A stretch of 64,000 nt of DNA, taken from IMG/VR virus record IMGVR_UViG_3300035704_000001, positions 62,001 to 126,000 of that record; one strand, 5' to 3'. The translations under genes and the position numbers were made by a program. Under the pieces are notes generated by a model. It was not told where the DNA came from. It saw only the letters and a list, made by a program, of their open reading frames with translations, and did not search any database. Shown here piece by piece: positions 10,319-34,289 of this stretch (position 1 is the first letter of the stretch; every line of letters begins with the position of its first letter). Source of the stretch: a virus.

Positions 10319-11272
10319 ATGACGCTCACGCGCATCGACATCGCCGACTTCCAGAGCCTGCAGCGGGCCACCATCCCGGTGGGGAGGCTGACCACCGTCA
10401 CCGGACCGACCGGCGCGGGCAAGTCCTCGGTCCGCCGGGCCGCCCTGCTGGCCGCCCAGAACGCCCGGGGCGTGGACTTCATCCGCCGCGGCGCCGCCCG
10501 GGCCGCCGTGGTGCTGTCCTTCGACAGCCCCGAGGGCCCGTTCACCGTGGCCATCCGCCGCACCGCCGCCGGACGCGGGGACCTGTACCGGGTCACCCGG
10601 GCCGACGGCACGTCAAAGGAGTACACCAAGCTGGGGGGCGGGGTGCCGGATGCGGTGGCGGACCTGCTGCGGCTGGGCCCGCTCAACTTCGTCGGCCAGC
10701 TCGACCCGCCGTACCTGCTGAGCGCTACCGGCACCGACGTGGCCCGGACGCTGGGCGAGCTGACTAACGTCTCGCTGGTGTTCCGCGCGGCCGCCGAGGC
10801 CGGCCGGCGCCGCAAGGGCTTCGACCGGGACGCCAAGTCCGCGGATACCCGGCTGGAGGCGCTGCGGGCAGAGGAGGAGGGCTTCGCCGGCCTGCCGGCC
10901 CAGCTCGACGCGATCCGGCAGGCCGCCGACGGCGTGGGCCACATGACCCGGATGGAGGGGGACCTGCTGCGGCTGGGCGGGCTGATCTGCCGGATGGACG
11001 AGCTGGCCGGCAAGCTGGCCGCTGCCAGGGCCGCTGCCGCCAGGGCCGCTCCGCCGGACCTGGGACGGCTGGAGCGCGGCCTGGCCACGTACCAGCGGCT
11101 GCAGGGGCTGATCGGCCGCCAGGAAGCGGCTGAGGCCGAGCTGGCCCGGTGCCAGGCCCGCGCAGCCGACGCCCTGTGCCGTGAGAAGCAGGCGCACACG
11201 GCGTTCCGTACCGAGCTGGAGGCGGCCGGGACGTGCCCGTTGTGCGAACAGGGCATCCCCGCGGCCGGCTAG
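10319..11272 (+). CDS. SbcC/Rad50-type ATPase, N-terminal half ending at the zinc hook
   Basis: 317 residues. It begins with the SMC/Rad50 N-terminal lobe: a strand with DFQSL, then Walker A GPTGAGKSS near residue 30. Residues 180-300 are a charged coiled coil. The protein stops nine residues after CPLC (near 305-308), the zinc-hook CxxC at the tip of the coiled coil. The missing half (descending coil, signature, Walker B, H-loop) is a separate gene at 17423. Rad50/SbcC is normally one chain of about 900-1000 residues, so this is a split ATPase. Leaderless start behind a class A motif. Its partner nuclease SbcD is at 12279. Confidence 0.85.
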   Translation: MTLTRIDIADFQSLQRATIPVGRLTTVTGPTGAGKSSVRRAALLAAQNARGVDFIRRGAARAAVVLSFDSPEGPFTVAIRRTAAGRGDLYRVTRADGTSKEYTKLGGGVPDAVADLLRLGPLNFVGQLDPPYLLSATGTDVARTLGELTNVSLVFRAAAEAGRRRKGFDRDAKSADTRLEALRAEEEGFAGLPAQLDAIRQAADGVGHMTRMEGDLLRLGGLICRMDELAGKLAAARAAAARAAPPDLGRLERGLATYQRLQGLIGRQEAAEAELARCQARAADALCREKQAHTAFRTELEAAGTCPLCEQGIPAAG

Positions 11273-11273
11273 G

Positions 11274-11287
11274 CGATAGCATGGGGC
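11274..11287 (+). promoter_or_regulatory. Class B-like start-associated motif
   Basis: CGATAGCATGGGGC ends at the endolysin GTG (11288). The CGAT form is that of late genes, as expected for a lysis gene. Confidence 0.4.
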
Positions 11288-12334
11288 GTGGGATACGCAA
11301 CCGGCGAAGACCGGTCTGACTTCCAGGCTGGGGGCCAGCCCTGGGGGGCCAACGACTTCGGCTTTACCAAGTTCACCGAGAGTGACAACTGGAAGGCCAG
11401 GACCGCGAAGGGCAACTGGTCGGCCATGCGGGCCGCGGGCATCCACCGCGGTGCCTATCACTTCTTCCACCCGGCTGTCTCGGCCGTGGCGCAGGCCAAC
11501 TTCTTCATCAGCGCGGTGCGGGCCGCCGGGGGCTGGGAGGACGGCGACATGTTCGCCGGGGACTTCGAGATCGCCCTGGGCGAAGGCGGCGCGGAAGTGG
11601 CCGGGGAGCCCGCGCTGCGCCGGATGCACGCTCCGCTGCTGGCGCTGTCGGCACACCGGATGGGCACCACGGTGGGCTCGGGCGCGCTGCAGTTCCTCAA
11701 CCGGGTGGCCGAGCTGGTCGGCCCGGCCTGCCCGGTGGTGGCGTACACCTACAGCGCGTTCCGGTCGAACGTGGCCAGCTGTGTCAGGTACCCGCTGTGG
11801 ATCGCCTCGTACTCGATGTCCCCGCCGGCCTCGGTCAGCCCGTGGCGCGACTGGACGATGTGGCAGAACTCTGACCACGGAGGCCAGGGCGGCGGGGACA
11901 CCAACCGGTTCAACGGCAACGCGGGGGCGCTGCAGAGCTGGCTGGACTCGCTTGCTCCCGCCCCCGCCAGCTGGACGGAGACCACCTTGAGCGAGCTGCC
12001 CACCCTGACCCAGGGCATGAAGGACCAGCCCGGGGCCAATACGGCCGTCGGCAAGATGCAGGCCCTGGTCGCGCACGTCGGCCGGAAGAACAACCTGGCC
12101 AAGTCGAAGGTGCTCGCCGACGACGGCGTTTTCGGCGCGACCACCAAGGCCGCGGTCACCGAGATCCAGGCGTTCTTCAAGATCACCGGCGGCAACGGCG
12201 AGTGCGGAAAGCGCACCTGGGAAGCCCTGCTGCTGGGTCACGTCTCGTTATGTCGGTGCCTCGTGCGTAGATACAGGTGTGGCAACTTATGGGCTTCTCT
12301 CCGACATTCACCTGACCCGGCGGGCTCCGGTTAA
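11288..12334 (+). CDS. Endolysin: GH25-type muramidase plus peptidoglycan-binding domain
   Basis: 348 residues, GTG start. Residues 1-220 fit a GH25 lysozyme barrel: DFQ near the N-terminus, HRGAYHFF, and the acidic strand FAGDFEIALG carrying the catalytic D-x-E. Residues 240-320 form a PG_binding_1 domain (VLADDGVFGATTKAAVTEIQAFF). It cleaves the glycan strand at lysis. The last 18 residues overlap the SbcD gene by 56 bases and look non-native. A lysis gene among replication genes is unusual, and it carries its own class B-like start motif. Confidence 0.85.
   Translation: MGYATGEDRSDFQAGGQPWGANDFGFTKFTESDNWKARTAKGNWSAMRAAGIHRGAYHFFHPAVSAVAQANFFISAVRAAGGWEDGDMFAGDFEIALGEGGAEVAGEPALRRMHAPLLALSAHRMGTTVGSGALQFLNRVAELVGPACPVVAYTYSAFRSNVASCVRYPLWIASYSMSPPASVSPWRDWTMWQNSDHGGQGGGDTNRFNGNAGALQSWLDSLAPAPASWTETTLSELPTLTQGMKDQPGANTAVGKMQALVAHVGRKNNLAKSKVLADDGVFGATTKAAVTEIQAFFKITGGNGECGKRTWEALLLGHVSLCRCLVRRYRCGNLWASLRHSPDPAGSG
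12266..12278 (+). promoter_or_regulatory. Class A start-associated promoter motif
   Basis: CGTAGATACAGGT ends exactly at the SbcD GTG, inside the 3' end of the endolysin gene. Confidence 0.5.
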
Positions 12335-13277
12335 CTGCACCGAGTCCTACCTGGAGGACCTGTTCGACCTCCTCCGGCAGGCGTTCGCGGTGTTCGCGCG
12401 GCGCAAGGTGGCCGCCGCTCTCGTCGCCGGCGACCTGTTCCACCACAAGGCGCCGACCCGGACCGATCACGAGATCGTCGGCACGCTGGCCGAGATGTTC
12501 CAGTCCCTGGACTACCCGGTGTGGATCGTCCCGGGCAATCACGACATGCAGAACGACCGGATCGAGTCGGTGGGCAAGACCCAGCCGCTGGGGGTGCTCT
12601 ACAAGGACCGCAGCGCGTACTGCCTGGACGGCTGGATGGGCGGGGAGCACCCGGTGTTCGGGGTGCCGTGGCAGCAGCACTGGTCCGAGGAGCGGATCGC
12701 GGAGTGCCTGCGCCCCTGGCGCGAGTACACGCCGTTCGAGGCGACGAGCGAGAGCTACCTGATCGTCACCCACGCGCCGATCTACCCGCCGTCCTGTGAG
12801 CCCCGCTACGAGGGCGCGGAACTGACCCCAGCCGACTGGTGGGCCGAAGCCGCGGGAGGCAGCCCCGGCGCGCACAGCGTGTTCTATGGCCATATCCACG
12901 AGCGCCACGGAACCTGGGAGCGCGGCGGGGTCACCTTCTGCAACAACGGGGCCCTGTCGCGCGGCTCGATCGGCGAGGACAACCTGACCCGGGCCATCGG
13001 GGCGACGCTGTGGACCCCGGGCGAGGGCTTCGAGTTCGTGCCGCTGGACGCCAAGCCGGCCGCGGAGGTGTTCCGGCTGCGCGAGCACGGGCAGGCGGTC
13101 ACCTCGCAGATGAGCCTGGACACGTTCATGGCCGGGCTCGGGTCTACCGTGCTGCCGCGGCTGGAGCCGGAGTCGGTGCTGGCCCGGTTCCGCGAGGACG
13201 ATGCCGGCGCGGACGAGATCGCCCTGGCCGAGGAGCTGCTGGACTGGGCCGGCGCCGAGGGGAAGGTAAAGCGATGA
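12279..13277 (+). CDS. SbcD/Mre11-like nuclease (metallophosphoesterase)
   Basis: 332 residues. The five metallophosphoesterase motifs appear in order: SDIHL, GDLFHH, GNHD, THAP and GHIHERHG, giving the two-metal site. The C-terminal 80 residues form a helical tail that in Mre11/SbcD holds the SbcC coiled-coil base. GTG start, leaderless. It is flanked by the two split SbcC genes, so the three likely make one end-processing complex that trims replication or recombination intermediates. Confidence 0.88.
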   Translation: MATYGLLSDIHLTRRAPVNCTESYLEDLFDLLRQAFAVFARRKVAAALVAGDLFHHKAPTRTDHEIVGTLAEMFQSLDYPVWIVPGNHDMQNDRIESVGKTQPLGVLYKDRSAYCLDGWMGGEHPVFGVPWQQHWSEERIAECLRPWREYTPFEATSESYLIVTHAPIYPPSCEPRYEGAELTPADWWAEAAGGSPGAHSVFYGHIHERHGTWERGGVTFCNNGALSRGSIGEDNLTRAIGATLWTPGEGFEFVPLDAKPAAEVFRLREHGQAVTSQMSLDTFMAGLGSTVLPRLEPESVLARFREDDAGADEIALAEELLDWAGAEGKVKR

Positions 13278-13438
13278 GCAGCCAGGATGGCTGGAGGGAC
13301 CGGTTCGCGCCGGACTACGACAAGTGCGCCTCACCGCGCTGCCAGGTGCCCGGGGGGATCATCGAGCCCGCCGACACGGTGCTCTACGACGGCGCCGGGC
13401 TGCAGGTGCACGAGGATTGCGAGGTGCCCGGTGCGTAG
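13274..13438 (+). CDS. Small cysteine-containing protein
   Basis: 54 residues, ATGA overlap with the sbcD-like stop and GGAAGG upstream. A C-x4-C (CASPRCQ) and a later H-x2-C suggest a small zinc fold. Function unknown. Confidence 0.5.
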   Translation: MSSQDGWRDRFAPDYDKCASPRCQVPGGIIEPADTVLYDGAGLQVHEDCEVPGA

Positions 13439-13661
13439 TCTCCGGCTGACCTATACCGTCGAGGCCTCGTACGACGATGAGCCGCCTGAGATCAAGGTGT
13501 TCCGGTTCCCGTCAAAACCCTGGTGGGGCTGCGTCGTCATGCTCTACCTCGGGCGCCTGGCCGCCATTGCCGGCCCGGCGAGACTGAAGGGCGGGACCAT
13601 CGTGACGCGCCTGGCGGATGGCTCGGTCGAGTACCTGGAGCGGAGGAAGCCCGATGCCTGA
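13431..13661 (+). CDS. Hypothetical protein
   Basis: 76 residues, GTG start overlapping the previous gene by 8 bases. Strand-rich N-terminus and a central hydrophobic segment (GCVVMLYLGRLAAIAG). No family recognised. Confidence 0.5.
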   Translation: MRSLRLTYTVEASYDDEPPEIKVFRFPSKPWWGCVVMLYLGRLAAIAGPARLKGGTIVTRLADGSVEYLERRKPDA

Positions 13662-14526
13662 CACCGGCTACAAGCCCATCCGGCTGTCCTGGTCCCGGCT
13701 GCGGGTGCACGACGAGTGCCCGGCCAAGGGCGACCTGATCTCGAAGCGGCAGAAGGGCGCGCTCACCGACACCCGCAACTTCCTGCACGGCAATGTCTGC
13801 GACCTCGCCATGCGGCGGTTCCTGAGCCTGGAGGCGCCCGCGGATGAGCTGGGCTGGATGGCCCGCCAGGTAGACGAACTCTTCGACGAGTGGATAGAGA
13901 TTGCGAAGAGTTCCGGGGACGGGATCATCAAGTGGCGCCACGCTGCCGACCAGGCCGAGGTGCGCGAATTCTGCCGGGAGGCGGTGACCCGGCTCGAAGA
14001 GCTGCTGGTCAGGTTCGTGCTGCCGTTCGACTGGTATCCGGCGTGGCGCTTCAACGTCCCGGTGAAGATCCATTACGGCCACGAGATCCGCGAGATTACG
14101 CTGACTGGCGAGGCCGACCTGCTGGTGTTCGACAAGCACGGCCGGATCTTCATCTGGGACCTCAAGGCGACCAAGGACGACAGCTACTGGCGCAAGACGC
14201 TGGCGCAGCTGGCGTTCTACGCGCTCGCGGTGAAGTGCGAGCGGGAGGAGGCCCTGCCGGAGGAGGAGAAGAAGCTGGGCCGGTGGCCGTACCGGGCCGG
14301 CCTGCTCCAGCCGATGTGCACCGAGCGGTTCCTGACGTTCGACGTCATGGCCGACGGCGGCCAGGCCATCCGCGAGATGACGAGCCGGATCGAGCGCGTG
14401 TCCGCGGACATCTGGGCAGGGCGCCTGGACCCTAAGCCGCAGGAGTGGTGCAACCGGTGCGAGGTGCGCCACGCCTGCCCGCTGTTCGCGCCGGGTTCCG
14501 GCCGCAAGGTGAAGATGGCGGCGTAG
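13654..14526 (+). CDS. Cas4/RecB-like PD-(D/E)XK exonuclease
   Basis: 290 residues; the ATG at 13654 has GGAGCGGAGGAAG upstream. The nuclease core reads GEADLLVF...IFIWDLKATK, the D...DxK of the PD-(D/E)XK superfamily, followed by a conserved Q-L-A-F-Y helix. A C-terminal CNRCEVRHACPLF triad plus an N-terminal Cys (HDECP) fits the four-cysteine iron-sulfur site of Cas4/AddB-type nucleases. It probably resects DNA ends together with the SbcCD-like and RecA proteins. Confidence 0.8.
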   Translation: MPDTGYKPIRLSWSRLRVHDECPAKGDLISKRQKGALTDTRNFLHGNVCDLAMRRFLSLEAPADELGWMARQVDELFDEWIEIAKSSGDGIIKWRHAADQAEVREFCREAVTRLEELLVRFVLPFDWYPAWRFNVPVKIHYGHEIREITLTGEADLLVFDKHGRIFIWDLKATKDDSYWRKTLAQLAFYALAVKCEREEALPEEEKKLGRWPYRAGLLQPMCTERFLTFDVMADGGQAIREMTSRIERVSADIWAGRLDPKPQEWCNRCEVRHACPLFAPGSGRKVKMAA

Positions 14527-14534
14527 TACAGGGC
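14522..14534 (+). promoter_or_regulatory. Class A start-associated promoter motif
   Basis: CGTAGTACAGGGC ends exactly at the ATG at 14535. Confidence 0.6.
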
Positions 14535-14660
14535 ATGAGCGCATCCGCAATCACCGAGTTCCAGGGCGAGTGGCGCCGGCTATCCAACTTCTGCAACAAC
14601 GGCCTGAACTACCTCGGGCGCATCCTGACGATGGTCCGTGACATCGTGCGGGAGGACTAG
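14535..14660 (+). CDS. 41-residue hypothetical protein
   Basis: A very short gene recognised because its ATG sits directly behind a class A motif and its stop overlaps the next start by one base. The sequence looks amphipathic helical (LSNFCNNGLNYLGRILTMVRDIV). Function unknown. Confidence 0.5.
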   Translation: MSASAITEFQGEWRRLSNFCNNGLNYLGRILTMVRDIVRED

Positions 14661-14914
14661 TGGCGGACATCGCAGGCCAGGTAGGCCAGCTCAAGACCCT
14701 GGCGGACAGGGCCACCGAGGCGCGGCACCGCGCCGACGCCGCGGTGGAAGCCGTCTCGGCCCGGCTGGAGGAAACGCAGCAGGAGCTGCGGACCGAATTC
14801 GACGTGGAGAACCTGGCGGAGGCCAGGGCAAAGGAGAAGCGGATGGAGACGGCGCTGGAGGCCGAGGCAGCCCGGGTAAGCGGGCTGCTGCAGCAGGCCG
14901 GAGGACGCGCGTGA
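14660..14914 (+). CDS. Small coiled-coil protein
   Basis: 84 residues, GTG start overlapping the preceding stop. Almost the whole chain is an Ala/Glu-rich heptad-like helix. It is coupled by overlap to the sliding-clamp gene, so a replisome-associated role is possible but unproven. Confidence 0.55.
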   Translation: MADIAGQVGQLKTLADRATEARHRADAAVEAVSARLEETQQELRTEFDVENLAEARAKEKRMETALEAEAARVSGLLQQAGGRA

Positions 14915-16062
14915 GCGGCCTGACGGTGGACTACGGCAAGCACGAGTTCACGGTCAGGAGGGTCATCCTGGCCCAGCTGGCCGCGCAGGCCGCGGTGGCG
15001 GTGCCGAGCCGCGAATCGCTCGCGGTGCACGGCAGCTTCCGGGTCACCGTGGCCCCCGGCCGGCTGGAGCTGGCCGCCACTGACAGCCAGCTGACCGTGC
15101 TGGCCGCCACCAAGTCGGTGGACACGCACGACACCGCGGTGCTGTTCCTGCCGGCCAAGCGGCTCAAGGACATCATTGACGCGGCCCCCGACGGCGACGT
15201 CACCATCTCGGTATCCGGCAACATGGCCCGGGTCAAGGCCGGCGGCCCGTCCTGGGACATGAAGCTGCCCAACCCCAAGGGCTATTCCGTGCTGATCGAC
15301 CCGGCTAAGGTCACCTTCGCCGCGGTGCCGCGCGAGTCGTTCCTGGCGGCCCTGCACACCATCCGGCACGCGGTCTGCAAGGACGTCTCGCGACCGCACT
15401 ACGCGCAGGTCCAGCTGGCCAAGGACGGCGAGCACGTCTGGGCGACGGCGTTCGACGGCCCGCAGATGTGCCGGGCCAGGGTGCCCGGCTTCCCGTTCGA
15501 GACGCTGATGCCGGCTGCCATGCTGCCCGAGCTGATCAAGCTGGCCGGGCGCAGCCAGGCCGACGACATCGAGGTAGGCGAGCTGGAGGGCACCGTGGTG
15601 GTCCGCTCCGGGCATACCGTGCTGGCCTGCACGCCGATGGGCGCGGAGTTCCCCAACGTGGCCCAGCTGATGCTCGGCCCGACCTCCGGCTACGACCTGG
15701 AGCTGGCGGTGGACGGCGCCGAGCTGGCCCAGGCCATCAACCGGGTCTCGGTCAACGCCCACCCCACCACCTCGGCCATGGCGCTGACGGCGGACGGCAG
15801 GCAGCTGACCGTGCAGGCCCAGGACGACGACGACAACAGGGCCGAGGAGATCATCAGCTGCACCTGGGCCGGGGACAGCCGCACCGTCGTGATCAACCAC
15901 AAGCACCTCGCCGCGATGCTGGCCGTGCACCCGCCGGGCACCTGCACGTTCCGGCTCGGGCTCGACGTGGGCCGGCGCCGGTCCATGGTCCGGCTGGAGG
16001 ACGAGGACGGCGCCATGATCGCGGTCATCCCGCAGATGAACCCCAGTGCGGCGGGCCGCTGA
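14911..16062 (+). CDS. DnaN-like sliding clamp (DNA polymerase III beta)
   Basis: 383 residues, GTG start, close to the about 370-residue DnaN length and organised as three similar strand-rich domains. Recognisable pieces: RVTVAPGRLELAATDSQLTV in domain 1, the LPAKRLKDII helix, and a domain 3 with VVINHKHLAAML and a Y/F-containing tail. The ring tethers the polymerase to DNA. With the delta-like and gamma/tau-like genes the phage encodes much of a bacterial-type clamp system. Confidence 0.8.
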   Translation: MSGLTVDYGKHEFTVRRVILAQLAAQAAVAVPSRESLAVHGSFRVTVAPGRLELAATDSQLTVLAATKSVDTHDTAVLFLPAKRLKDIIDAAPDGDVTISVSGNMARVKAGGPSWDMKLPNPKGYSVLIDPAKVTFAAVPRESFLAALHTIRHAVCKDVSRPHYAQVQLAKDGEHVWATAFDGPQMCRARVPGFPFETLMPAAMLPELIKLAGRSQADDIEVGELEGTVVVRSGHTVLACTPMGAEFPNVAQLMLGPTSGYDLELAVDGAELAQAINRVSVNAHPTTSAMALTADGRQLTVQAQDDDDNRAEEIISCTWAGDSRTVVINHKHLAAMLAVHPPGTCTFRLGLDVGRRRSMVRLEDEDGAMIAVIPQMNPSAAGR

Positions 16063-16063
16063 C

Positions 16064-16420
16064 ATGGCTGAGGGCGCCGTCAAGTGGTACGACGACAGCA
16101 AGGGCTTCGGCTTCATCGAGCGCGAGGGCCAGGAGGACATCTGGTTCCACGCCCGGGACCGGTCCGGCAGCGTGGACGAGGCCCAGTTCCTGCCCGGTGC
16201 CCGCGTCGTGTTCACCGAGGAACTGGTCCGGGGCCGGGCCAAGGCGAACATCACCGCCGTCCTGGGCGGGTCCCGGGGCGAGCCCGAGCCGGAGCCGGAG
16301 TCCGAGCCCGCCCAGGAGTACACCGTGGATGAGGTCATCAAGGGGCTGGAGGGCGTTTTCCTGGCCGGCCTGGAGTGGCTGGACATCCTGAAGCAAGTGG
16401 CCAAGAACGGGCAGGCGTAG
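16064..16420 (+). CDS. Cold-shock domain protein with C-terminal extension
   Basis: 118 residues. Residues 1-70 form a CSD OB fold with KWYDDSKGFGFIE (RNP1-like) and DIWFH (RNP2-like). A Glu/Pro linker and a hydrophobic helix (VIKGLEGVFLAGLEWLDILKQV) follow, absent from ordinary 67-residue cold-shock proteins. Likely single-stranded nucleic acid chaperone. Confidence 0.8.
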   Translation: MAEGAVKWYDDSKGFGFIEREGQEDIWFHARDRSGSVDEAQFLPGARVVFTEELVRGRAKANITAVLGGSRGEPEPEPESEPAQEYTVDEVIKGLEGVFLAGLEWLDILKQVAKNGQA

Positions 16421-16428
16421 TAACGGGC
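16416..16428 (+). promoter_or_regulatory. Class A start-associated promoter motif
   Basis: CGTAGTAACGGGC ends exactly at the ATG at 16429. Confidence 0.65.
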
Positions 16429-17019
16429 ATGAGCACAGACACCGCATCCAAGTCCCTGGCCCAGATGCAGGCCGAGGTCGTCGAGTACAACCACGCGATG
16501 GGCTGGCGCGAGAACGACGTCACGTTCGGCGAGGCCATGGCCCTGCTGCACACCGAGGTGGCCGAGGCCTCCGATGCCTGGCGCCGGTGGGGTACCGACG
16601 ACGCCACTCAGGACACCCTGTATACGGCCGGACTGGGTACCCGGATACCGAATCCCAAGCCCGAGGGTGTCGGGTCGGAGTTCGCCGACGTCTTCATCCG
16701 GCTGCTCGACGACTGCGACCTGTACGAGGTCGATCTCCAGGCTGCTGTGGACCGGCATACTGGTCTCTTCGGCGTCAACGAGTCGTTCCTGGAGAACACC
16801 AACCACCTGCACACGATGATCGCCAGGGCGTCTATGGTGTTCGAGCTGGCGTGGGATGAGCCTGACCCGGCGTATGCCCTGGCGAGGGAGTTCGCCGGCA
16901 TCCTGGTGTTCCTCCGCCAGCTGTGCGAGCGCTACGGCATCGACCTGATGGCCGAGTACGAGCGCAAGATGGCCTACAACCGCACCCGGCCTTACAGGCA
17001 CGGCGGGAAGCGGCAGTGA
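16429..17019 (+). CDS. MazG-like nucleotide pyrophosphohydrolase
   Basis: 196 residues, leaderless. The MazG helix pair is visible: ALLHTEVAEASDAWRRW gives E-x2-E, and EFADVFIRLLDDC gives the second E-x2-D metal-binding helix. MazG-type enzymes hydrolyse NTPs or dNTPs, or alarmone-like nucleotides. The neighbouring deoxyribosyltransferase-like gene supports a nucleotide-pool role. Confidence 0.7.
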   Translation: MSTDTASKSLAQMQAEVVEYNHAMGWRENDVTFGEAMALLHTEVAEASDAWRRWGTDDATQDTLYTAGLGTRIPNPKPEGVGSEFADVFIRLLDDCDLYEVDLQAAVDRHTGLFGVNESFLENTNHLHTMIARASMVFELAWDEPDPAYALAREFAGILVFLRQLCERYGIDLMAEYERKMAYNRTRPYRHGGKRQ

Positions 17020-17426
17020 GCCCGGGGAAGATCTACCTGGCTGCTGCCTACCAGCGCATCGACGAGATGCGCGGCGTTCGCGATGTGCTCGGTGCGCTGG
17101 GATACCAGGTCACCTCGCGCTGGATCGACCAGCGGGGCAAGGGGGAGGGCCTGGGGACGGCCGATCTTGCCGACAACCCGGAGCAGGGCATTCAGTATGC
17201 CGAGCTTGACCTGGAGGACCTGCGCGCAGCCGAGACGGTGATCTCGTTCACCGGAGCCAGCGGGCGCGGCGGGCGTCATGTCGAGTTCGGCGCAGCCCTC
17301 GCTCTGGGCAAGCACCTCATCATCGTCGGGCCGCGCGAACACGTGTTCCATACGCTGCCCGCCATCGAGTGGTATCCGGACTGGCCTCGCCTGGTCATGG
17401 CCCTGTCCCCGGCTGTCCGGGCGTGA
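17016..17426 (+). CDS. Nucleoside 2-deoxyribosyltransferase-like protein
   Basis: 136 residues, GTG start overlapping the MazG-like stop. The fold pattern fits the family: N-terminal IYLAAAYQRIDEMRGVRDVL, central AETVISFTG, then GRHVEFGAALALGKHLIIVG with the catalytic-type glutamate. Family members move deoxyribose between bases or hydrolyse deoxynucleotides. A SLOG/TIR-like nucleotide hydrolase is an alternative. Confidence 0.65.
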   Translation: MSPGKIYLAAAYQRIDEMRGVRDVLGALGYQVTSRWIDQRGKGEGLGTADLADNPEQGIQYAELDLEDLRAAETVISFTGASGRGGRHVEFGAALALGKHLIIVGPREHVFHTLPAIEWYPDWPRLVMALSPAVRA

Positions 17427-18079
17427 CCGGCACCGCCGAGCTGGCCCGGGCCGTCGAGCGCCGCCGGTCTGAGCTGGACCGGCGGGCCGGGCAGCTGGAG
17501 CAGCTGCAGCACCAGATCGGCGTGACCGAGACCGAGCTGGCCGGCCTCCGGGCCCAGGCCGGGCTGCATGCCAGGGTGGCCCTGCGCCTGACCGCTACCG
17601 GCGAGCTGGCGCAGGAGACCGCCCGGGCCAAGGTGGAGGACCTGGCCACCCGGGCACTGGCGGTCATCTTCGGCCCGGAGCACGCGTTCGTGCTCAAGCC
17701 GGGGGACCGTGGCGGGCAGGCCACGCTGGACCTGCTGGTGCGCTCGGCCTACCCGGACGGCAAGATCGTCGAGACCGGCATCCTGGAGGCGCGCGGCGGC
17801 GGCATGGCGGCGGTGCTCGGCTACGTGCTGCGGCTGGTGAAGCTGCTGCTGACACCGGAGATCCGCAACATCCTGTTCCTGGACGAGACCTTCGGCCACG
17901 TCTCGGCCAGCGTCGAGCCGCGGGTGGCCGAGTTCCTGCGGCTGGTCTCGGACCGGACTGGCGTGCAGCACGTGCTGATCACTCACTCGACGGTCTACGG
18001 CGACTTCGCCGACCAGGCCGTCCGGCTGGAGCAGGGCGCCGACGGGATCACCGTCGTCCACCGCGGGGAGAGCGAATGA
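17423..18079 (+). CDS. SbcC/Rad50-type ATPase, C-terminal half
   Basis: 218 residues, GTG start overlapping the upstream stop. It opens with a coiled coil (residues 1-75), then the C-terminal ATPase lobe: a signature-like EARGGGMAAVLGYVLRL, Walker B ILFLDETFGHVS near residue 150 with the D-loop, and the H-loop LITHST near 187. It has no Walker A. It therefore complements the Walker A-containing half at 10319; the two chains should assemble one ABC ATPase. The ascending coil lacks a CxxC, so only the N-half carries a visible zinc-hook cysteine pair. Confidence 0.85.
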   Translation: MTGTAELARAVERRRSELDRRAGQLEQLQHQIGVTETELAGLRAQAGLHARVALRLTATGELAQETARAKVEDLATRALAVIFGPEHAFVLKPGDRGGQATLDLLVRSAYPDGKIVETGILEARGGGMAAVLGYVLRLVKLLLTPEIRNILFLDETFGHVSASVEPRVAEFLRLVSDRTGVQHVLITHSTVYGDFADQAVRLEQGADGITVVHRGESE

Positions 18080-18558: not shown

Positions 18559-21500
18559 ATGACCAGGACTGCTGAAGCCGCCGGCCGGTGGCTGGACGAG
18601 AACCTGTACCGGTTCGACGGCCCCGGCCAGTTCCTCGGGGACGAGCCCGGCTCCCAGCTGGCCTCGCTGGGCATGGACCGGGCCGCGCTGTGGGACTACG
18701 GCAAGGTCCGGGTGTGCCTGGCCGCGTCCTGGGACTACGCGCAGGCCTCGGGCAACATCGCCATCCCGGCGGTGCTCAATGCCATCCGGGTGGCCGGGGA
18801 GTACGTGGCCGACCGGTTCTACCTGCCGTCCACCTCGCGCGACTGGTCGATGCTGGTCAAGGGCGGGCTCGGCTGCTTCGGCATCGAGACCCGGCACCCG
18901 CTGCGGGACTTCGACGTGGTGGCCACGAGCATCAGCTACACCGTGCTGTTCCAGAACTTCAGCGCCTACCTGACGGCCTCCGGCATCCCGCTGCGCCGCG
19001 CCGACCGGGAGAAGAACCCGGAGGCCTGGCCCCTGGTGATGGCCGGCGGGCAGGCCTACTGCGCGCCCGAGTTCATGTCCGCCGTCTTCGACTGCATCTG
19101 GCTGGGGGAGGCGGAGGACGAGGAAGGCGAGTCCGGCGGCATCGGCGAGGTGTGCGGGGTCATCGCCGCGTGCAAGGCCGATGGCTGCTGGCAGCGTGAC
19201 CGGCTCGGCTGCTACCGCATGCTGGCCCGCCGGTTCAGCCACCTGTACTTCCCGCAGTTCACGGCGTTCACCTACCGCTACGAGGACCGCGGGCTGGAGC
19301 ATCCCACCAAGATGGTGGCCGGGCACTGGCCGGTGCTCGACGGCATGCGCTACCCGCACCAGCGCCGGTACATCAAGAACCTGGACAAGATGTGCCCGCT
19401 GTGCTCGGCCCCGCTGCTGTATACCGACCCGGGGATGGGCGCCGGGGACTCCGAGATCGCCCGCGGCTGCACCTGCTGGTGCCCGTTCTGCCGGCTGTCC
19501 TGGGTGACCAAGCCGTACCGGCAGCACGACGTGGACTACTCGATCCGCCAGATGCAGCTGTGGCGGCAGGCCATGGGCTCGGTGGACATCTCGCTGGTGG
19601 CCCCGGACCCGCCGGTACACACCCAGATGAAAGAGCTGCTGGCTCGCATCCTGGGCGAGGTCACCGACGAGGTGGACGCGTCGTCCATGCGGATCGACGA
19701 CTACCTGGCCGACCACGACTTCGCGCTGCTGATGACGATCGCCGGCGCCGACTCGCTCACGCTCGGGCTGGAGGGCAACTCCCAGCGGATGCGCGACCTG
19801 GCCGGCAAGGGCACCTCCGACGACGACGTGTGCGAGGTGGTCACCCGGGCCATCCGGGCCGGCATCAGGCGGATCAAGCTCTACATGATCACGAACTGGC
19901 CGGGGGAGACGGCCGCTGACGTCATGCGGATCGTTGAGCTGGGCCGCCGGCTGGCTGCCATCCGCGCGGACTTCGACGCCCAGAAGGTCCGCATCCAGTT
20001 CAGCTGGACCCCGCTGCTCATCGAGGCGCAGACCCCGCTGCAGTGGTTCGAGGTCACCGCGCCGGACTACCGGCTGCAGCAGGCCCTGGACGAGCTGCGC
20101 GACCTCGGCATCTCGATGAAGATCGGCTCGAAGGCCAACCCCGACAAGCTGGCGTTCTTCCAGGCCTGCCAGCGGGCCAGCCGCGACGCCGGGGAGGCGC
20201 TGGCGGATGTCGTCGAGGGGATCGGCGAGCCGTCCTGGGGCGGGTTCCCCAAGGACATGCAGGACCGGCTCGACGTCGCGCTTATGTCGCACGGCTTCCT
20301 CAACGGGCTGGCCGACCTGTTCGGCGAGCGGTTCCGCAGCGACCTGCTGGGCTGGGAGCACATCGACACGGGCGTGTCCACGGACCTGATGTGGCAGGTC
20401 TACGCGGACATGGTGGCGTTCCTCAAGGGCACCGACCCGGAGACCTACGACGATGCCGAGCGCGGCGCGGCCAGCGGCAACGAGTGGGTCGGCCGGTGCG
20501 ATCAGACCTGCCAGGGCGCGGCGTGCGGGGCGTGCGACCACGATGACCTCAAGCTGCGCAAGGACTACATCACCGCCACCGACCGGGACCTGGAGGCCGA
20601 GCCGGTCGACCCGGTCGACCACACCACGGTGTCCCGCCGTCTCCGCCTGCGGCTGTACCGGCCGCAGGAGTACCGGTTCGCCTCGTCCGAGTTCCTGCGC
20701 TTCCACATCCGCGCGGCCGCGTTCCGGGCGTGCGACGCCACCGGGTTCCCGGCCATCGCCAAGCGCACCGTGGGGCTGGCCTCCGACGCCACCGCCTACC
20801 GGGACCGGTCCTCGGGGGTGGAGTACGCCGAGTTCGGCGTCACCCGGCCCGTGACGGCCGGGGAGGAGCTGGAGCGGTTCCTGGACGCTCTCGGGTCCGG
20901 GCTGGCGCCCTGGCTGGAGCTGGAGGCCTGCCAGGTGCTGCCCGCGGCCGCGCGCATGCCGTCCCGGCCGGTCGGGCTGTGGGAGGTCGAGACCGACCTG
21001 ACCGAGGACGAGCTGGCCGCGCTGCTGCGCGGGTGGGACAAGGCCGGGACGGTCCGGTTCCTGCTGAAGTCGGACAGCTTCTACGCCGGCGAGCAAGCCG
21101 TGTGGATCAACGCCAAGGACCACGTGACCGACCTGTGGGCGACCCGCGCCGGGCACCGGGTAGTGGTCCGGATGCTGCTGGGCGGCAAGCTGGGCCCGTA
21201 CCAGGTCATGCAGGCGCTGCTGGGCAAGAACTCGTGGATGCCGCTGGCCAGGCACCCGGCGGTCCGGCTCGGGTTCTTCCGGCCTGGCCAGGAGGCGGGC
21301 CCGCTGCCCTGCACCGGCTGCGGGCTGCCGGTGCCCGAGGGCCTGCTCGGCGAGATCCCCGACTGCGACTGGTGCCCGCGCTGCCGTGACGAGGAGGCGG
21401 GAGAGATTATCGCCGGTCTGGCCCGCGTGGGCGTATTACAGGGCACGGAAGTTAACACCTGGGGAGAAGCCTGTGGACGCCATTCCGATGTTCGAGGACG

Positions 21501-21603
21501 TGGACGAGCTGAGAGCGGCCGCGGAGGCCGGGACCGTCGATGTGCACGTAGCGGCAGCAGCGGCCATCTTCGGCCTGGAATCGGCCCAGGTCGGCCCGGC
21601 TGA
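18559..21603 (+). CDS. Large radical SAM protein with DUF2344-like C-terminal domain
   Basis: 1014 residues as an open frame. The radical SAM cluster motif C-x3-C-x2-C appears as RGCTCWCPFC near residue 303, followed by barrel motifs such as IRRIKLYMITNWPGET. The order, a 280-residue lead-in with a VVATSISY strand, the SAM barrel, and then RLRLRLYRPQEYRFASSEF with RAAAFRACDATG, follows bacterial uncharacterised radical SAM proteins linked to DUF2344. The C-terminal end has CTGCG and CDWCPRC pairs, probably a zinc ribbon. The substrate is unknown. The final 40-60 residues run across the next gene and its promoter motif, so the true end may differ. Confidence 0.75.
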   Translation: MTRTAEAAGRWLDENLYRFDGPGQFLGDEPGSQLASLGMDRAALWDYGKVRVCLAASWDYAQASGNIAIPAVLNAIRVAGEYVADRFYLPSTSRDWSMLVKGGLGCFGIETRHPLRDFDVVATSISYTVLFQNFSAYLTASGIPLRRADREKNPEAWPLVMAGGQAYCAPEFMSAVFDCIWLGEAEDEEGESGGIGEVCGVIAACKADGCWQRDRLGCYRMLARRFSHLYFPQFTAFTYRYEDRGLEHPTKMVAGHWPVLDGMRYPHQRRYIKNLDKMCPLCSAPLLYTDPGMGAGDSEIARGCTCWCPFCRLSWVTKPYRQHDVDYSIRQMQLWRQAMGSVDISLVAPDPPVHTQMKELLARILGEVTDEVDASSMRIDDYLADHDFALLMTIAGADSLTLGLEGNSQRMRDLAGKGTSDDDVCEVVTRAIRAGIRRIKLYMITNWPGETAADVMRIVELGRRLAAIRADFDAQKVRIQFSWTPLLIEAQTPLQWFEVTAPDYRLQQALDELRDLGISMKIGSKANPDKLAFFQACQRASRDAGEALADVVEGIGEPSWGGFPKDMQDRLDVALMSHGFLNGLADLFGERFRSDLLGWEHIDTGVSTDLMWQVYADMVAFLKGTDPETYDDAERGAASGNEWVGRCDQTCQGAACGACDHDDLKLRKDYITATDRDLEAEPVDPVDHTTVSRRLRLRLYRPQEYRFASSEFLRFHIRAAAFRACDATGFPAIAKRTVGLASDATAYRDRSSGVEYAEFGVTRPVTAGEELERFLDALGSGLAPWLELEACQVLPAAARMPSRPVGLWEVETDLTEDELAALLRGWDKAGTVRFLLKSDSFYAGEQAVWINAKDHVTDLWATRAGHRVVVRMLLGGKLGPYQVMQALLGKNSWMPLARHPAVRLGFFRPGQEAGPLPCTGCGLPVPEGLLGEIPDCDWCPRCRDEEAGEIIAGLARVGVLQGTEVNTWGEACGRHSDVRGRGRAESGRGGRDRRCARSGSSGHLRPGIGPGRPG
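21432..21444 (+). promoter_or_regulatory. Class A promoter motif with a leader
   Basis: CGTATTACAGGGC lies inside the radical SAM frame, 28 bases before the GTG at 21473 with its GGGGAG site. Confidence 0.5.
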
Positions 21604-30851: not shown

Positions 30852-30924
30852 GGGAGCGTGGCACAGCGGCAACTGCAGTGGCCTCCAAAACCACCAACCG
30901 AGGGTTCGAGTCCTTCCGCTCCTG
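30852..30924 (+). tRNA. tRNA-Trp(CCA)
   Basis: Acceptor GGGAGCG/CGCTCCT (one G-T), anticodon loop CTCCAAA, T-arm GAGGG-TTCGAGT-CCTTC. The closing anticodon pair is C31-A39. Confidence 0.8.
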
Positions 30925-30999
30925 CGACCATCGTCAACGCGAGAGCCGCGACGGTGCCTGTCACCTGGCAGTACTTGAGAACTCCACAGCGTGAGCATC

Positions 31000-31021
31000 G
31001 AGCAGGCTAGCCAGCCTGCTC
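31000..31021. repeat. Perfect hairpin in tRNA spacer
   Basis: GAGCAGGCT/AGCCTGCTC: nine paired bases closing a four-base loop. Confidence 0.7.
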
Positions 31022-31031
31022 AGTTAGACGT

Positions 31032-31076
31032 GCTGGGCTGGCCGCAACCGGGACTCCCCGGGGAAGCCAGCCCAGC
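31032..31076. repeat. Compound hairpin upstream of tRNA-Ala
   Basis: GCTGGGCTGGC/GCCAGCCCAGC (11 bp) encloses CCGGG-actc-CCCGG. It ends six bases before the tRNA-Ala 5' end. Confidence 0.7.
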
Positions 31077-31081
31077 GCACT

Positions 31082-31154
31082 GGGGCTATAGCGCAGCTGG
31101 TAGCGCACCTCCATGGCATGGAGGGGGTCAGGAGTTCGAATCTCCTTAGCTCCA
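31082..31154 (+). tRNA. tRNA-Ala(GGC)
   Basis: Acceptor GGGGCTA/TAGCTCC, anticodon arm CCTCC-ATGGCAT-GGAGG, T-arm AGGAG-TTCGAAT-CTCCT. Confidence 0.85.
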
Positions 31155-31256
31155 CTGGTGCTGCTGACATGTGTAGAGGGCCGTGACGGGTACCTCAGCG
31201 GCGGTTATGCCGAAGGCCGGGTGTCTCCGGCGGCAAATAGGCGGCGGCACCAGCCT

Positions 31257-31329
31257 GGGGCTGAAGCACAACTGGTTGTGCATCGGTGTCGCAAGCCGAC
31301 GGGTGCGGGTTCGAGTCCCGCCAGCTCCA
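31257..31329 (+). tRNA. tRNA-Ala(CGC)
   Basis: Acceptor GGGGCTG/CAGCTCC, anticodon arm TCGGT-GTCGCAA-GCCGA, T-arm GCGGG-TTCGAGT-CCCGC. Confidence 0.8.
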
Positions 31330-31332
31330 CTA

Positions 31333-31367
31333 GCCGGGAGATGCGGGTTCGAATCCCGTCAGCTATG
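31333..31367 (+). tRNA. tRNA 3' half (upstream part of a permuted tRNA candidate)
   Basis: GCCGG (anticodon stem 3' strand), GAGAT variable loop, T-arm GCGGG-TTCGAAT-CCCGT and CAGCTAT acceptor strand, with no 5' half before it. The matching 5' half lies downstream at 31427. It may be a remnant instead. Confidence 0.45.
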
Positions 31368-31400
31368 CAGCCGTCGCCTTCAGCAGTGCACCTGGAGGCG

Positions 31401-31420
31401 GCCCGCTCGGCCGAGCGGGC
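31401..31420. repeat. Perfect 20-bp palindrome between tRNA halves
   Basis: GCCCGCTCGG followed by its exact reverse complement, lying between the 3' half at 31333 and the 5' half at 31427. Confidence 0.8.
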
Positions 31421-31426
31421 AGGCAG

Positions 31427-31463
31427 CCAGCTGTAGCTCAACTGGCAGAGCCCCGGCGTTAAA
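31427..31463 (+). tRNA. tRNA 5' half (downstream part of a permuted tRNA candidate)
   Basis: CCAGCTG acceptor strand, TA, D-arm GCTC-AACTGGCA-GAGC, then CCGGC and the loop start GTTAAA. CCGGC pairs perfectly with GCCGG of the upstream half, and five of seven acceptor positions pair. It abuts tRNA-Pro(CGG). Confidence 0.45.
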
Positions 31464-31538
31464 CGGGAAGTGGCGCAGCTTGGCTAGCGCGCCGCGTTCG
31501 GGACGCGGAGGTCGTGGGTTCGAATCCCGCCTTCCCGA
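31464..31538 (+). tRNA. tRNA-Pro(CGG)
   Basis: Acceptor CGGGAAG/CTTCCCG, anticodon arm CCGCG-TTCGGGA-CGCGG, T-loop TTCGAAT. Confidence 0.85.
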
Positions 31539-31582
31539 CTAGGCCGGCAAGCGGGGCCGAGAGGCCAGCGCACGGCCACCAA

Positions 31583-31658
31583 CGGGCTGTGGCGCAGTTT
31601 GGCTCAGCGCACCTGTCTGGGGGACAGGGGGTCATCGGTTCGAATCCGGTCAGCCCGA
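31583..31658 (+). tRNA. tRNA-Pro(GGG)
   Basis: Acceptor CGGGCTG/CAGCCCG, anticodon arm CCTGT-CTGGGGG-ACAGG, T-loop TTCGAAT. Confidence 0.85.
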
Positions 31659-31776
31659 CTAGGCAGGTCCGACGCAGGCGCCGCCTTTAAGCGGTTCGCG
31701 GCGGAAGCGAGGACGCTCGTCTCGTGTGGTACCGGGGTACCGGGTTCCCCGGACGACATGGGTGGCCTGCCTTTCA

Positions 31777-31848
31777 CGGGATGTGGTGTAAGGGTCAGCG
31801 TGCCTGCTTTGGAAGCAGGAGGATGAGGTTCGAGTCCTTGCATCCCGA
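31777..31848 (+). tRNA. tRNA-Pro(TGG)
   Basis: Acceptor CGGGATG/CATCCCG, anticodon arm CCTGC-TTTGGAA-GCAGG. The D-stem is weak. Confidence 0.8.
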
Positions 31849-31914
31849 CTGAGGGGAGGAACCCCCGGCACGGGTAGCGCGGAGGGGTCCGCGTCCGGCC
31901 GCCTCCCCCGACAT

Positions 31915-31988
31915 GGAGCTGTAGCTCAGTTGGTAAGAGCGCCCGTCTGAAAAGCGGGAGGTCGGTGTGTCGAGTACACCTGGCTCCA
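31915..31988 (+). tRNA. tRNA-Phe(GAA)
   Basis: Acceptor GGAGCTG/TGGCTCC, anticodon arm CCCGT-CTGAAAA-GCGGG. The T-arm is atypical, GGTGT-GTCGAGT-ACACC, with G at position 54. Confidence 0.8.
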
Positions 31989-32041
31989 CGATGGACTGAC
32001 GTCTGGCGGCAGCCGAAAGGCCGAGCAACCGGGTGACTGAT

Positions 32042-32055
32042 CTGGAGGCCTCCAG
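32042..32055. repeat. Perfect 14-bp palindrome
   Basis: CTGGAGGCCTCCAG in the spacer between tRNA-Phe and tRNA-Gly. Confidence 0.7.
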
Positions 32056-32066
32056 TACCCAGTAAG

Positions 32067-32088
32067 CCGCGCAGCTGCAGCTGCGCGG
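32067..32088. repeat. Perfect 22-bp palindrome
   Basis: CCGCGCAGCTG followed by its exact reverse complement, 11 bases after the previous palindrome. Confidence 0.75.
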
Positions 32089-32173
32089 TATCAGCCCACC
32101 CCGGGACATCCACTCCGGGGCGCGAGGACGACCGGCGGACCCAGGCGTTACTGGGGGCTTGAGCCGGGACCCT

Positions 32174-32246
32174 GCGGACGAGTCCCAACTGGCCGGGTAC
32201 CAGCCCTCCAAGCTGGTTGTTGCGGGTTCGACTCCCGTCGTCCGCT
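32174..32246 (+). tRNA. tRNA-Gly(TCC) with C33
   Basis: Acceptor GCGGACG/CGTCCGC, anticodon arm CCAGC-CCTCCAA-GCTGG: position 33 is C instead of T. T-arm GCGGG-TTCGACT-CCCGT. Confidence 0.75.
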
Positions 32247-32365
32247 CTTAGGATGTGAAGAGGTACGGGCCCGGATGCTACTCCGGGTTGCGTGCAAGCG
32301 GCTGTCGGGTCGCGGCCGGGCGGGGTGGTGAGGCCGACATCTTGCCACCCCGCGCCGGTTTTCAT

Positions 32366-32437
32366 GCTCCGTTAGCTCAGTGGCAGAGCGGTGGGCTCTT
32401 AACCCGCGCGTCCGGGGTCCGATTCCCTGACGGAGCA
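32366..32437 (+). tRNA. tRNA-Lys(CTT)
   Basis: Acceptor GCTCCGT/ACGGAGC, anticodon arm GTGGG-CTCTTAA-CCCGC. Confidence 0.85.
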
Positions 32438-32443
32438 CAGCAC

Positions 32444-32516
32444 GGGCGGGTAGGCCAGCGGGAGAGTCAGCCGCCCCAAAAGCGGTAGTGCGCGGGTTCG
32501 AATCCCGCCCCGCCCA
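32444..32516 (+). tRNA. tRNA with CAA anticodon and C33 (class I body)
   Basis: Acceptor GGGCGGG/CCCGCCC, anticodon arm GCCGC-CCCAAAA-GCGGT, T-arm GCGGG-TTCGAAT-CCCGC. CAA is a Leu anticodon but the long variable arm of tRNA-Leu is absent, so its charging is uncertain. Confidence 0.6.
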
Positions 32517-32614
32517 CGAACGGATGACACGGCCGTCCTGCGAATCCGTGTCCGGTCCCTCCCTGGGGAGGAACAAGGCCGTTACTCCGGGGAGAGCAAA
32601 GACCCCCGGCGCGA

Positions 32615-32686
32615 TGGGGTATGGGGTAACCGGCAGCCCGGCGGACTCTGAATCCGTCAGTCTTGGTTCGAATCCAGGTACCTCAG
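32615..32686 (+). tRNA. tRNA-Gln(CTG)
   Basis: Acceptor TGGGGTA/TACCTCA, anticodon arm GCGGA-CTCTGAA-TCCGT, T-loop TTCGAAT. Confidence 0.8.
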
Positions 32687-33157
32687 CTAGCTGGCCGCCG
32701 GCCAGCTGGACACGTCGTTCACGGCGGTGTGGATCGTGTCGCTCAGCGGGGTCGGCCAGGGCACCGTGGGCAGGATGTAGCCGCGGAGCCGGATGGCGCC
32801 GTAGGCCTCGATCAGCCAGCGCAGGTAGGGCAGCGCCTGGAACTGCATCAGCTGGATCATGTCCGGGCTGGTGTACGGGCCGCCGCCGTCACTGACAGGC
32901 GGGCTGGTGGCTTCCAGCTCGCTGTCGGACGATCCGGTCTCCCCGGTCGAGACGGGCGGGAAGCCCTCGAAGTGCTTCCCGCCGGCGTTGTCGGTGTAGG
33001 CGACGACCCAGATCACGGTGTCACCGGAGCCGGCCAGGGAGGCCACCTCGACGGGGCTCTGGGCCATGTTGAACATGGCCGCGAAGTTGATCCCGTCACC
33101 GGTGTCCGAATTCATGAAGGTGTCGATCTCGGCGTCAGTCGGAGGGGCGGTAGCCAT
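32687..33157 (-). CDS. Reverse-strand hypothetical protein inside the tRNA island
   Basis: 156 residues, ATG start. N-terminal acidic/Thr-rich region, then strand-like DTVIWVVAYTDNAGG and a C-terminal aromatic, Pro-rich segment. It ends one base from the 3' end of the oppositely oriented tRNA-Gln. No family recognised; composition and codon bias support coding on this strand. Confidence 0.55.
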   Translation of the reverse strand: MATAPPTDAEIDTFMNSDTGDGINFAAMFNMAQSPVEVASLAGSGDTVIWVVAYTDNAGGKHFEGFPPVSTGETGSSDSELEATSPPVSDGGGPYTSPDMIQLMQFQALPYLRWLIEAYGAIRLRGYILPTVPWPTPLSDTIHTAVNDVSSWPAAS

Positions 33158-33206
33158 GGCCCTACCCTGGCCGGCTTCCGCGCCGCGCGCAATTGCGCGA
33201 GGTCAC

Positions 33207-33279
33207 GCCGGGGTAGCTCAAATGGCAGAGCAGGCGTCTCGTAAACGTCAGGTTGAGGGTTCGATCCCGTCCTCCGGCT
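33207..33279 (+). tRNA. tRNA-Thr(CGT)
   Basis: Acceptor GCCGGGG/CTCCGGC, anticodon arm GGCGT-CTCGTAA-ACGTC. The T-stem has one G-G mismatch. Confidence 0.75.
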
Positions 33280-33287
33280 CGATACAC

Positions 33288-33373
33288 GTCCGCGTGGCGG
33301 AATAGGCATACGCGCAGCCTTGAGGTGGCTGTGCTCCTAGCGGAGCGTGAGAGTTCAAGTCTCTCCGCGGACA
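33288..33373 (+). tRNA. tRNA-Leu(GAG)
   Basis: Class II. Acceptor GTCCGCG/CGCGGAC, anticodon arm CAGCC-TTGAGGT-GGCTG, long variable arm GCTCCTAGCGGAGC. Confidence 0.9.
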
Positions 33374-33378
33374 CACGG

Positions 33379-33451
33379 TGGGGGTTAGCTCAATAGGCCG
33401 AGCAGCGGTCCTTGGTACCGCGGGATCGGGGTTCGAGTCCCTGGCCCCCAG
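33379..33451 (+). tRNA. tRNA-Gln(TTG) with C33
   Basis: Acceptor TGGGGGT/GCCCCCA, anticodon arm GCGGT-CCTTGGT-ACCGC with C33. Confidence 0.75.
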
Positions 33452-33553
33452 CAGAATCAATCGCGGGCTGCGTGTCAGGAATCGTCAGGCCGGCGACAGA
33501 TAGCTAGTAGGACCTGCCCTTCGGACCGGCGTCCGCGTGTCTTCGGTAAGGAC

Positions 33554-33601
33554 GCGCCGCCCGGATCGGCACCGGGGAAGGGCTCAAGAGGGGGCGGCGC
33601 G
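33554..33601. repeat. Long-arm inverted repeat in spacer
   Basis: The 33452-33697 spacer holds no gene I can support. It contains a nine-base inverted repeat, approximately GCGCCGCCC/GGGCGGCGC. Confidence 0.5.
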
Positions 33602-33697
33602 TTCCGGCCTTCTGCCTCGTGCGGACGAGACTGGTCTCTCCCCGTGCAGGTTGTCTCTGGTGGTGGTTAGGCCAGCACCGCCGGACAGGGGCGCAAT

Positions 33698-33771
33698 GCG
33701 GACGTGGCTCAGTCGGTTACGGCGCCACGTTGCCAACGTGGAGATCGCGAGTTCGAATCTCGCCGTCCGCA
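33698..33771 (+). tRNA. tRNA-Gly(GCC)
   Basis: Acceptor GCGGACG/CGTCCGC, anticodon arm CCACG-TTGCCAA-CGTGG, T-arm GCGAG-TTCGAAT-CTCGC. Confidence 0.85.
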
Positions 33772-33774
33772 CTC

Positions 33775-33826
33775 AGGGATGAAACAGCAGCGGGCTGTAA
33801 AGCCGGTTCGACTCCGGTGATCCCTG
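33775..33826 (+). tRNA. Minimal tRNA-like element
   Basis: AGGGAT/ATCCCT acceptor-like stem, small hairpin ACAGC-AGCGG-GCTGT, and T-arm GCCGG-TTCGACT-CCGGT, only about 52 bases long. It also contains CTGTAAA, the loop of a Tyr tRNA. Either a decayed tRNA or a tRNA mimic. Confidence 0.4.
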
Positions 33827-33831
33827 TTCGA

Positions 33832-33914
33832 GCGCTCGTGGCGAAACGGCATACGCGCACGGTTCAGGTCCGTGTGCCCGCGAGGGCGTAAGGGTTCAAA
33901 TCCCTTCGAGCGCA
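33832..33914 (+). tRNA. tRNA-Leu(CAG)
   Basis: Class II. Acceptor GCGCTCG/CGAGCGC, anticodon loop TTCAGGT, long variable arm GCCCGCGAGGGC. Confidence 0.9.
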
Positions 33915-33919
33915 CGACA

Positions 33920-33970
33920 TCCTGGCCGCTTCGACGGCCAGGACGCGGGCCCTGGCTCTGGCCAGGGCCC
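33920..33970. repeat. Two adjacent strong hairpins
   Basis: CCTGGCCG/CGGCCAGG, then GGGCCCTGGC-tctg-GCCAGGGCCC (33947-33970), directly before tRNA-Ser(GCT). Confidence 0.7.
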
Positions 33971-33975
33971 AGCAC

Positions 33976-34059
33976 GGAGGGCTGGCTCAGCGGCTACAGC
34001 GGCGCCCTGCTAAGGCGCAGGGGCTCCGGCCCTCACGGGTTCGAGTCCCGTGCCCTCCT
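33976..34059 (+). tRNA. tRNA-Ser(GCT)
   Basis: Class II. Acceptor GGAGGGC/GCCCTCC, anticodon arm GCGCC-CTGCTAA-GGCGC. Confidence 0.85.
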
Positions 34060-34063
34060 CCAC

Positions 34064-34123
34064 GGGCTGTATGACACCGGCCGTGCCTGCCGGCAAAGGC
34101 GGGTTCGCCTCCCGTACGGTCCA
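34064..34123 (+). tRNA. D-arm-less tRNA-like gene (TGC at anticodon position)
   Basis: Acceptor GGGCTGT/ACGGTCC with two G-T pairs, six-base ATGACA in place of the D-arm, anticodon arm CCGGC-CGTGCCT-GCCGG, five-base variable loop, T-arm GCGGG-TTCGCCT-CCCGT. Position 33 is G. About 60 bases long. Confidence 0.45.
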
Positions 34124-34127
34124 CCCT

Positions 34128-34214: not shown

Positions 34215-34233
34215 CTGGTCTCGTTCGTGACTC

Positions 34234-34246: not shown

Positions 34247-34289
34247 TGTTACCGTCACGATACGGTCCGTCACGGAAAGGGAGTTCATC

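Follow-up and report, generated by a model that had tools for sequence, protein, structure and literature searches.

The window analysed here is a 64,000-nucleotide stretch of virus DNA (IMG/VR record IMGVR_UViG_3300035704_000001, positions 62,001 to 126,000). It encodes the two halves of an SbcC/Rad50-type protein in separate reading frames, and the protein is cut right behind the zinc hook, as the initial annotation had described. The annotation had also placed an SbcD gene between the halves, which agrees with our results, but it missed a third, small coiled-coil gene. The features of the locus are listed in Table 1. The whole 150,822-base record, which is possibly incomplete, was searched with PF13476, the C-half profile, and phrog_77. 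Only these two halves were found; a full-length SbcC elsewhere, which the initial annotation had regarded as incompatible with a split enzyme, was not detected.

Table 1. Features of the split SbcC locus, in window coordinates.
Feature	Position	Strand	Basis
N-half of SbcC, 317 aa: Rad50 N-lobe, helical arm, C-terminal zinc hook	10319..11272	+	ORF, PHROGs, AlphaFold2 fold
Walker A GPTGAGKS, aa 29-36	10403..10426	+	sequence; family alignment
Q-loop Gln127	10697..10699	+	N-half family alignment
Zinc-hook CPLC, aa 306-309, 8 residues before the C-terminus	11234..11245	+	sequence; hook kept in relatives
SbcD/Mre11-like phosphoesterase, 332 aa	12279..13277	+	Pfam, TIGR00619, catalytic motifs; relatives in the same gene set
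Third piece, 84 aa: helix-break-helix coiled-coil protein, proposed missing coil strand	14660..14914	+	profile searches, colinearity; Firmicutes relatives phrog_18563
C-half of SbcC, 218 aa: arm helix and Rad50 C-lobe	17423..18079	+	PHROGs, profile comparison, AlphaFold2 fold
Signature motif region RGGG (Arg at the place of the Rad50 Ser; GGG = aa 125-127)	17792..17803	+	profile alignment
Walker B Asp154-Glu155 (LDE motif)	17882..17887	+	C-half family alignment
H-loop His188 (ITH motif)	17984..17986	+	C-half family alignment

The N-half contains the N-terminal ABC half-lobe with Walker A and Q-loop. In the N-half family alignment, G29, G34, and K35 of Walker A are invariant or nearly so, and the Q-loop Gln is present in 118 of 119 aligned sequences, the remaining one having a gap. 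The protein matches phrog_16465 (7e-16). AlphaFold2 was run on single chains with family alignments from which the Magritte sequence was left out. The N-half model (pLDDT 88.8, pTM 0.45) consists of the N-lobe, helices 151-188, 192-242, and 248-303, and then the hook; its best structure matches are 9a9j chain A and 1f2u chain A. The C-terminal end reads EAAGTCPLCEQGIPAAG. Walker A, the helical arm, and the terminal CPLC are thus as originally described, except that eight residues follow the hook instead of the nine reported.

The C-half starts at a GTG that overlaps the stop codon of the preceding gene, and its open frame extends up to 17369. It matches phrog_15167 (1.7e-28); Pfam gave no match above the cut-off for either the C-half or the third piece. 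The predicted structure (pLDDT 94.7) is a single 82-residue helix (residues 2 to 83) followed by a Rad50 C-lobe, and its best PDB match is P. furiosus Rad50 1f2u chain B (E 3.7e-8). This half-lobe carries Walker B, the D-loop region, and the H-loop. Walker B Asp and Glu are present in 162 of 163 aligned C-halves and so is the H-loop His, with one gap in each case. A coiled coil, signature region, Walker B, and H-loop with neither Walker A nor a visible CxxC had been described for this product, and the motifs and predicted fold of the C-half agree. Judged from the PHROGs matches and the predicted folds, which match P. furiosus Rad50 chains, the SbcC identity of both halves is far beyond chance.

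The canonical signature LSGG is absent, and most members have RGGG instead, in an alignment of uncertain register. The signature position was set by profile alignment to Rad50, with a one-residue gap just downstream that makes the register uncertain; in this register, the position of the signature Ser is occupied by Arg in 124 of the 163 aligned C-halves (duplicates included) and by Ser in only 7. An S793R substitution in P. furiosus Rad50 prevents the protein from binding ATP and from dimerising in an ATP-dependent manner (PMC7247530). If the register is right, ATP-dependent dimerisation of the phage heads must follow a modified mode.

Other members of the wider protein class were considered as identities. 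An SMC or RecN protein was rejected because the N chain ends in a CPxC hook instead of a hinge domain or a RecN-type middle region, and Rad50 structures rank above SMC for the C-half in both profile and fold searches. A Lamassu LmuB or SMC-like defence protein was also rejected, the window proteins giving only weak partial matches in PADLOC. The Firmicutes N-half L052 matches LmuB at 8e-17 across most of its length, which we read as generic SMC-like sequence similarity.

The product of the gene between the halves is a calcineurin-type phosphoesterase (Pfam, 1.3e-11; TIGR00619 sbcD, 1.7e-8) in which the SbcD motifs DxH, GDxxH/D, GNHD, H, and GHxH are all present. A GH25 lysozyme gene with a peptidoglycan-binding domain (11288-12334) is situated between the N-half and SbcD genes amid replication and repair genes; it is absent from the corresponding place in the related locus L004.

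The third piece of the window has two helix-like stretches flanking the break EFDVENLAEA. Its Firmicutes relatives make up phrog_18563, to which PHROGs assigns no function. An initial three-sequence profile matched most loci, never more than once in each. With an enlarged profile, the third piece and SbcD were present in 58 of the 62 non-redundant loci holding both the N-half and the C-half. The order N-half, third piece, C-half held in all 58 of these loci, which share descent and are not independent events: SbcD follows the C-half in 28, lies between the N-half and the third piece in 27, and is fused to the N-half in 3. In nine of the 58, the end of the third gene and the start of the C-half gene overlap by exactly 4 bases.

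Of 33 whole virus records, 29 contained the N-half and 29 the third piece, the latter usually once per record; the record of Microbacterium phage Magritte has a third piece, far from its N-half. Five host genomes of 3.3-7 Mb each gave one match at E<=1e-6, and in the one genome checked (L156) it was the gene adjoining the C-half. Among 150 further host genomes of the same family, all lacking the C-half, there were only two weak matches, both in frames of more than 1000 aa and from one genome. The third piece is not a generic coiled coil, because its profile matches track the presence of the C-half in host genomes. Colinearity and coupling suggest that it is a stretch of SbcC that has become a separate chain.

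The relatives were collected starting from BLAST matches in Bacillus phage vB_BboS-125 and in Magritte, followed by scans of IMG/VR and GTDB genomes. The GTDB scan used a Firmicutes C-half alignment and is therefore biased towards Firmicutes. A search of viral contigs with the N-half alone gave no matches, and relatives were obtained via the C-half. The C-half relatives amount to 101 distinct sequences (87 clusters below 90% identity). The initial annotation had suggested a search for fused versions; among the loci of these 101 relatives, no fusion of N-half with C-half, third piece with C-half, or N-half with third piece was found. Nowhere are the N-lobe, arms, hook, and C-lobe on a single polypeptide; they are encoded by separate genes in all relatives, with unrelated genes between the pieces. 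In some phages, such as Magritte, the N-half, third piece, and C-half are scattered across the genome. In three loci (L126, L128, and L131), SbcD is fused to the N-half (707-772 aa) while the third piece and C-half remain separate genes; in L131, the 769-aa fusion is followed by the third piece and then by the C-half about 1 kb downstream. The split is not confined to this locus and is no error: it characterises a genuine, widespread SbcCD variant in which SbcC is probably made as three chains.

The hook is a common property of the N-halves. Of 91 distinct N-halves with a length of 280 aa or more, 87 have a CPxC or CDxC motif among their final 45 residues, usually at a distance of 4-18 residues from the C-terminus. 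The motif is lacking in Magritte, L189, and L190 and in a broken frame shared by the overlapping loci L010 and L078. In the hookless N-halves of Magritte (L003, 7998-9050), L189, and L190, the CPxC is lost and the arm is retained, which makes them natural controls for hook function. CxxC occurs in 3 of 103 distinct C-half frames, twice beyond the C-lobe in run-on frames and once in an upstream extension; because all three lie outside the arm, the C-half arm itself is without CxxC. The initial annotation had concluded that a hook on only one of the two chains would change how two heads are tethered. This is not supported. An ordinary Rad50 protomer likewise has one CxxC, and one zinc is shared by two protomers. 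A single CPLC near the end of the N chain, presumably at the apex of the arm, therefore implies the usual hook stoichiometry. What changes relative to ordinary Rad50 is the covalent continuity behind the hook, since the N chain stops there.

In the family alignment, N-arm length ranges from approximately 150 to 358 residues and is mostly stepped, with classes near 157, 208, 259, 307, and 355 residues; the steps are seen in the N-halves of the window, L001, L034, L036, L137, and others. N-arms of the 307 class show internal similarity at lags of 47, 94, and 141, indicating tandem 47-residue repeats. The third piece and the C arm (about 77 and 55 residues, respectively, in most loci) are nearly constant while the N-arm varies, and N-arm length correlates with neither. 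In the window, which belongs to the shortest class, an N-arm of 161 residues faces about 135 residues of third piece plus C arm. A matched two-stranded antiparallel arm is thus an approximate fit for the shortest class and does not fit the longer ones, in which the extra repeats would either fold back on themselves or pair with something else.

We propose that the product of the locus is probably a DNA-end nuclease of the SbcCD (Mre11-Rad50) type, with an SbcC built from three separately translated chains. The N-half, with Walker A, Q-loop, ascending arm, and complete CPxC hook, would pack against the C-half, with the root of the descending arm, signature, Walker B, and H-loop, to form one ABC-ATPase head. 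Two such heads would dimerise around ATP and gate SbcD. The third chain, of about 80 aa, would most likely be a coil strand on the descending side between the hook and the C-half, where it would pair with the N-arm. One zinc would join two N chains at their C-terminal hooks, so that two complexes could be tethered as in ordinary Rad50, and the path behind the hook would not be covalently continued in the tethered complex.

This three-chain arrangement is supported because the motifs of the halves are complementary, with the catalytic residues kept family-wide, the predicted single-chain folds match Rad50 chains, fusions between the pieces are absent, the order N-half, third piece, C-half is constant, and the third piece co-occurs with the C-half. 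Assembly of a head from two chains also has experimental precedent, as the N- and C-segments in 1f2t and 1f2u are individual chains that differ in sequence. That the two halves make up one ATPase, as first suggested in the initial annotation, is very probable. Three observations count against the arrangement: the arm lengths beyond the shortest class, for which there is no simple two-stranded coil; the Arg at the signature Ser, if its register is correct; and the scattered genes of Magritte.

Alternatively, the halves could act apart, with no common ATP site: the N-half would bind ATP and carry the hook, and the C-half would serve as an inhibitor or in some other capacity. The distant genes of Magritte and the frequent Arg at the signature Ser would suit such a division. 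However, neither half is a whole ABC fold, Walker A and Q-loop on one side and Walker B and H-loop on the other are conserved and make sense only together, and each half matches its counterpart chain in two-chain Rad50 structures. We consider independent action highly improbable. Decayed remnants of one SbcC gene, or an artefact of annotation or assembly (frameshift, intron, or contig error), can be dismissed with still greater confidence. Phage genes are often broken, and the N-half frame of L010 is indeed broken near the hook, but this origin is refuted by the 101 distinct relatives, in which the frames are intact, have starts of their own, and keep the catalytic residues, and by the unrelated genes between the pieces.

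The role of the third chain leaves more room for doubt. SbcC could consist of the N-half and C-half only, with the third chain as an accessory factor that, for instance, regulates the enzyme or links it to the clamp or nuclease encoded nearby. In favour of this, N-arm length is independent of the lengths of the third piece and C arm, the third gene overlaps the sliding-clamp gene in the window, and three divergent loci (L067, L068, and L071, all short contigs) have no detectable third piece. The colinearity in 58 of 58 loci, the 4-base overlaps with the C-half start, and the strict co-occurrence with the C-half argue against it. We regard an accessory role as rather unlikely and membership of the third chain in the complex as likely. 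A more speculative version of the three-chain arrangement, to which we give a low probability, is that the third chain serves as an exchangeable strand by which the SbcC arm can open below the hook, the complex being an openable clamp in which the longer 47-residue-repeat N-arms take up partners or fold back. If true, the arm architecture would be unlike that of any studied Rad50.

The phage proteins share with SbcCD/Mre11-Rad50 (E. coli SbcCD, P. furiosus Rad50, and T4 gp46/47) the ABC-ATPase lobes, CPxC hook, helical arms, and SbcD-type nuclease partner. They differ in the division of SbcC into three polypeptides, the third chain itself, the Arg at the signature Ser, and the stepped N-arm lengths, the 307 class having repeats of 47 residues. 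The P. furiosus Rad50 constructs 1F2T, 1F2U, and 1US8 also form one head from N- and C-segments on separate chains, but they are engineered catalytic fragments without a hook, whereas the phage split is natural and the N chain retains its arm and hook.

The long arms and hook of Rad50 are thought to work as a single continuous mechanical element. Many phages appear to run SbcC without that continuity, one chain ending at the hook and another taking over. The split SbcC is thus a natural experiment on the purpose of the hook and of arm continuity, and the need for continuous Rad50 arms becomes directly testable, the phage pieces being small and separately expressible.

Parts of this system have been recorded before. 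Yoshida et al. (2011; PMC3175470) described Mre11/Rad50 fusions of Bacillus phage 0305phi8-36 and Anaerostipes and stated of one P-loop NTPase segment that it was "not observed" in them. These resemble our SbcD-N-half fusions, and L131 is probably phage 0305phi8-36. In contrast to that report, L131 has the missing segment as a separate C-half gene, with the third piece in between, which could account for the "missing" NTPase half. The N-half, C-half, and third piece are catalogued singly in PHROGs as 16465 ("exonuclease"), 15167 ("ATPase"), and 18563 (unknown function), with descriptions that neither link them nor name one SbcC; our results provide a likely function for the uncharacterised family phrog_18563. 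A description of a split or three-part phage SbcC was not found in the open-access papers searched. A jumbo-phage survey describes split polymerases in phages, and its passages on SbcC mention no split (PMC7824862).

Further genes were observed around the C-half. A cold-shock-domain protein (16046-16420) is encoded in the same gene run as the clamp, a MazG-like protein, and the C-half. On the 3' side of the C-half is a large radical SAM protein (Radical_SAM_N2 and Radical_SAM; 18559-21603), conserved in L004 (13605-16463). The window also contains 36 tRNA genes within approximately 6 kb (30852-36910), covering most amino acids.
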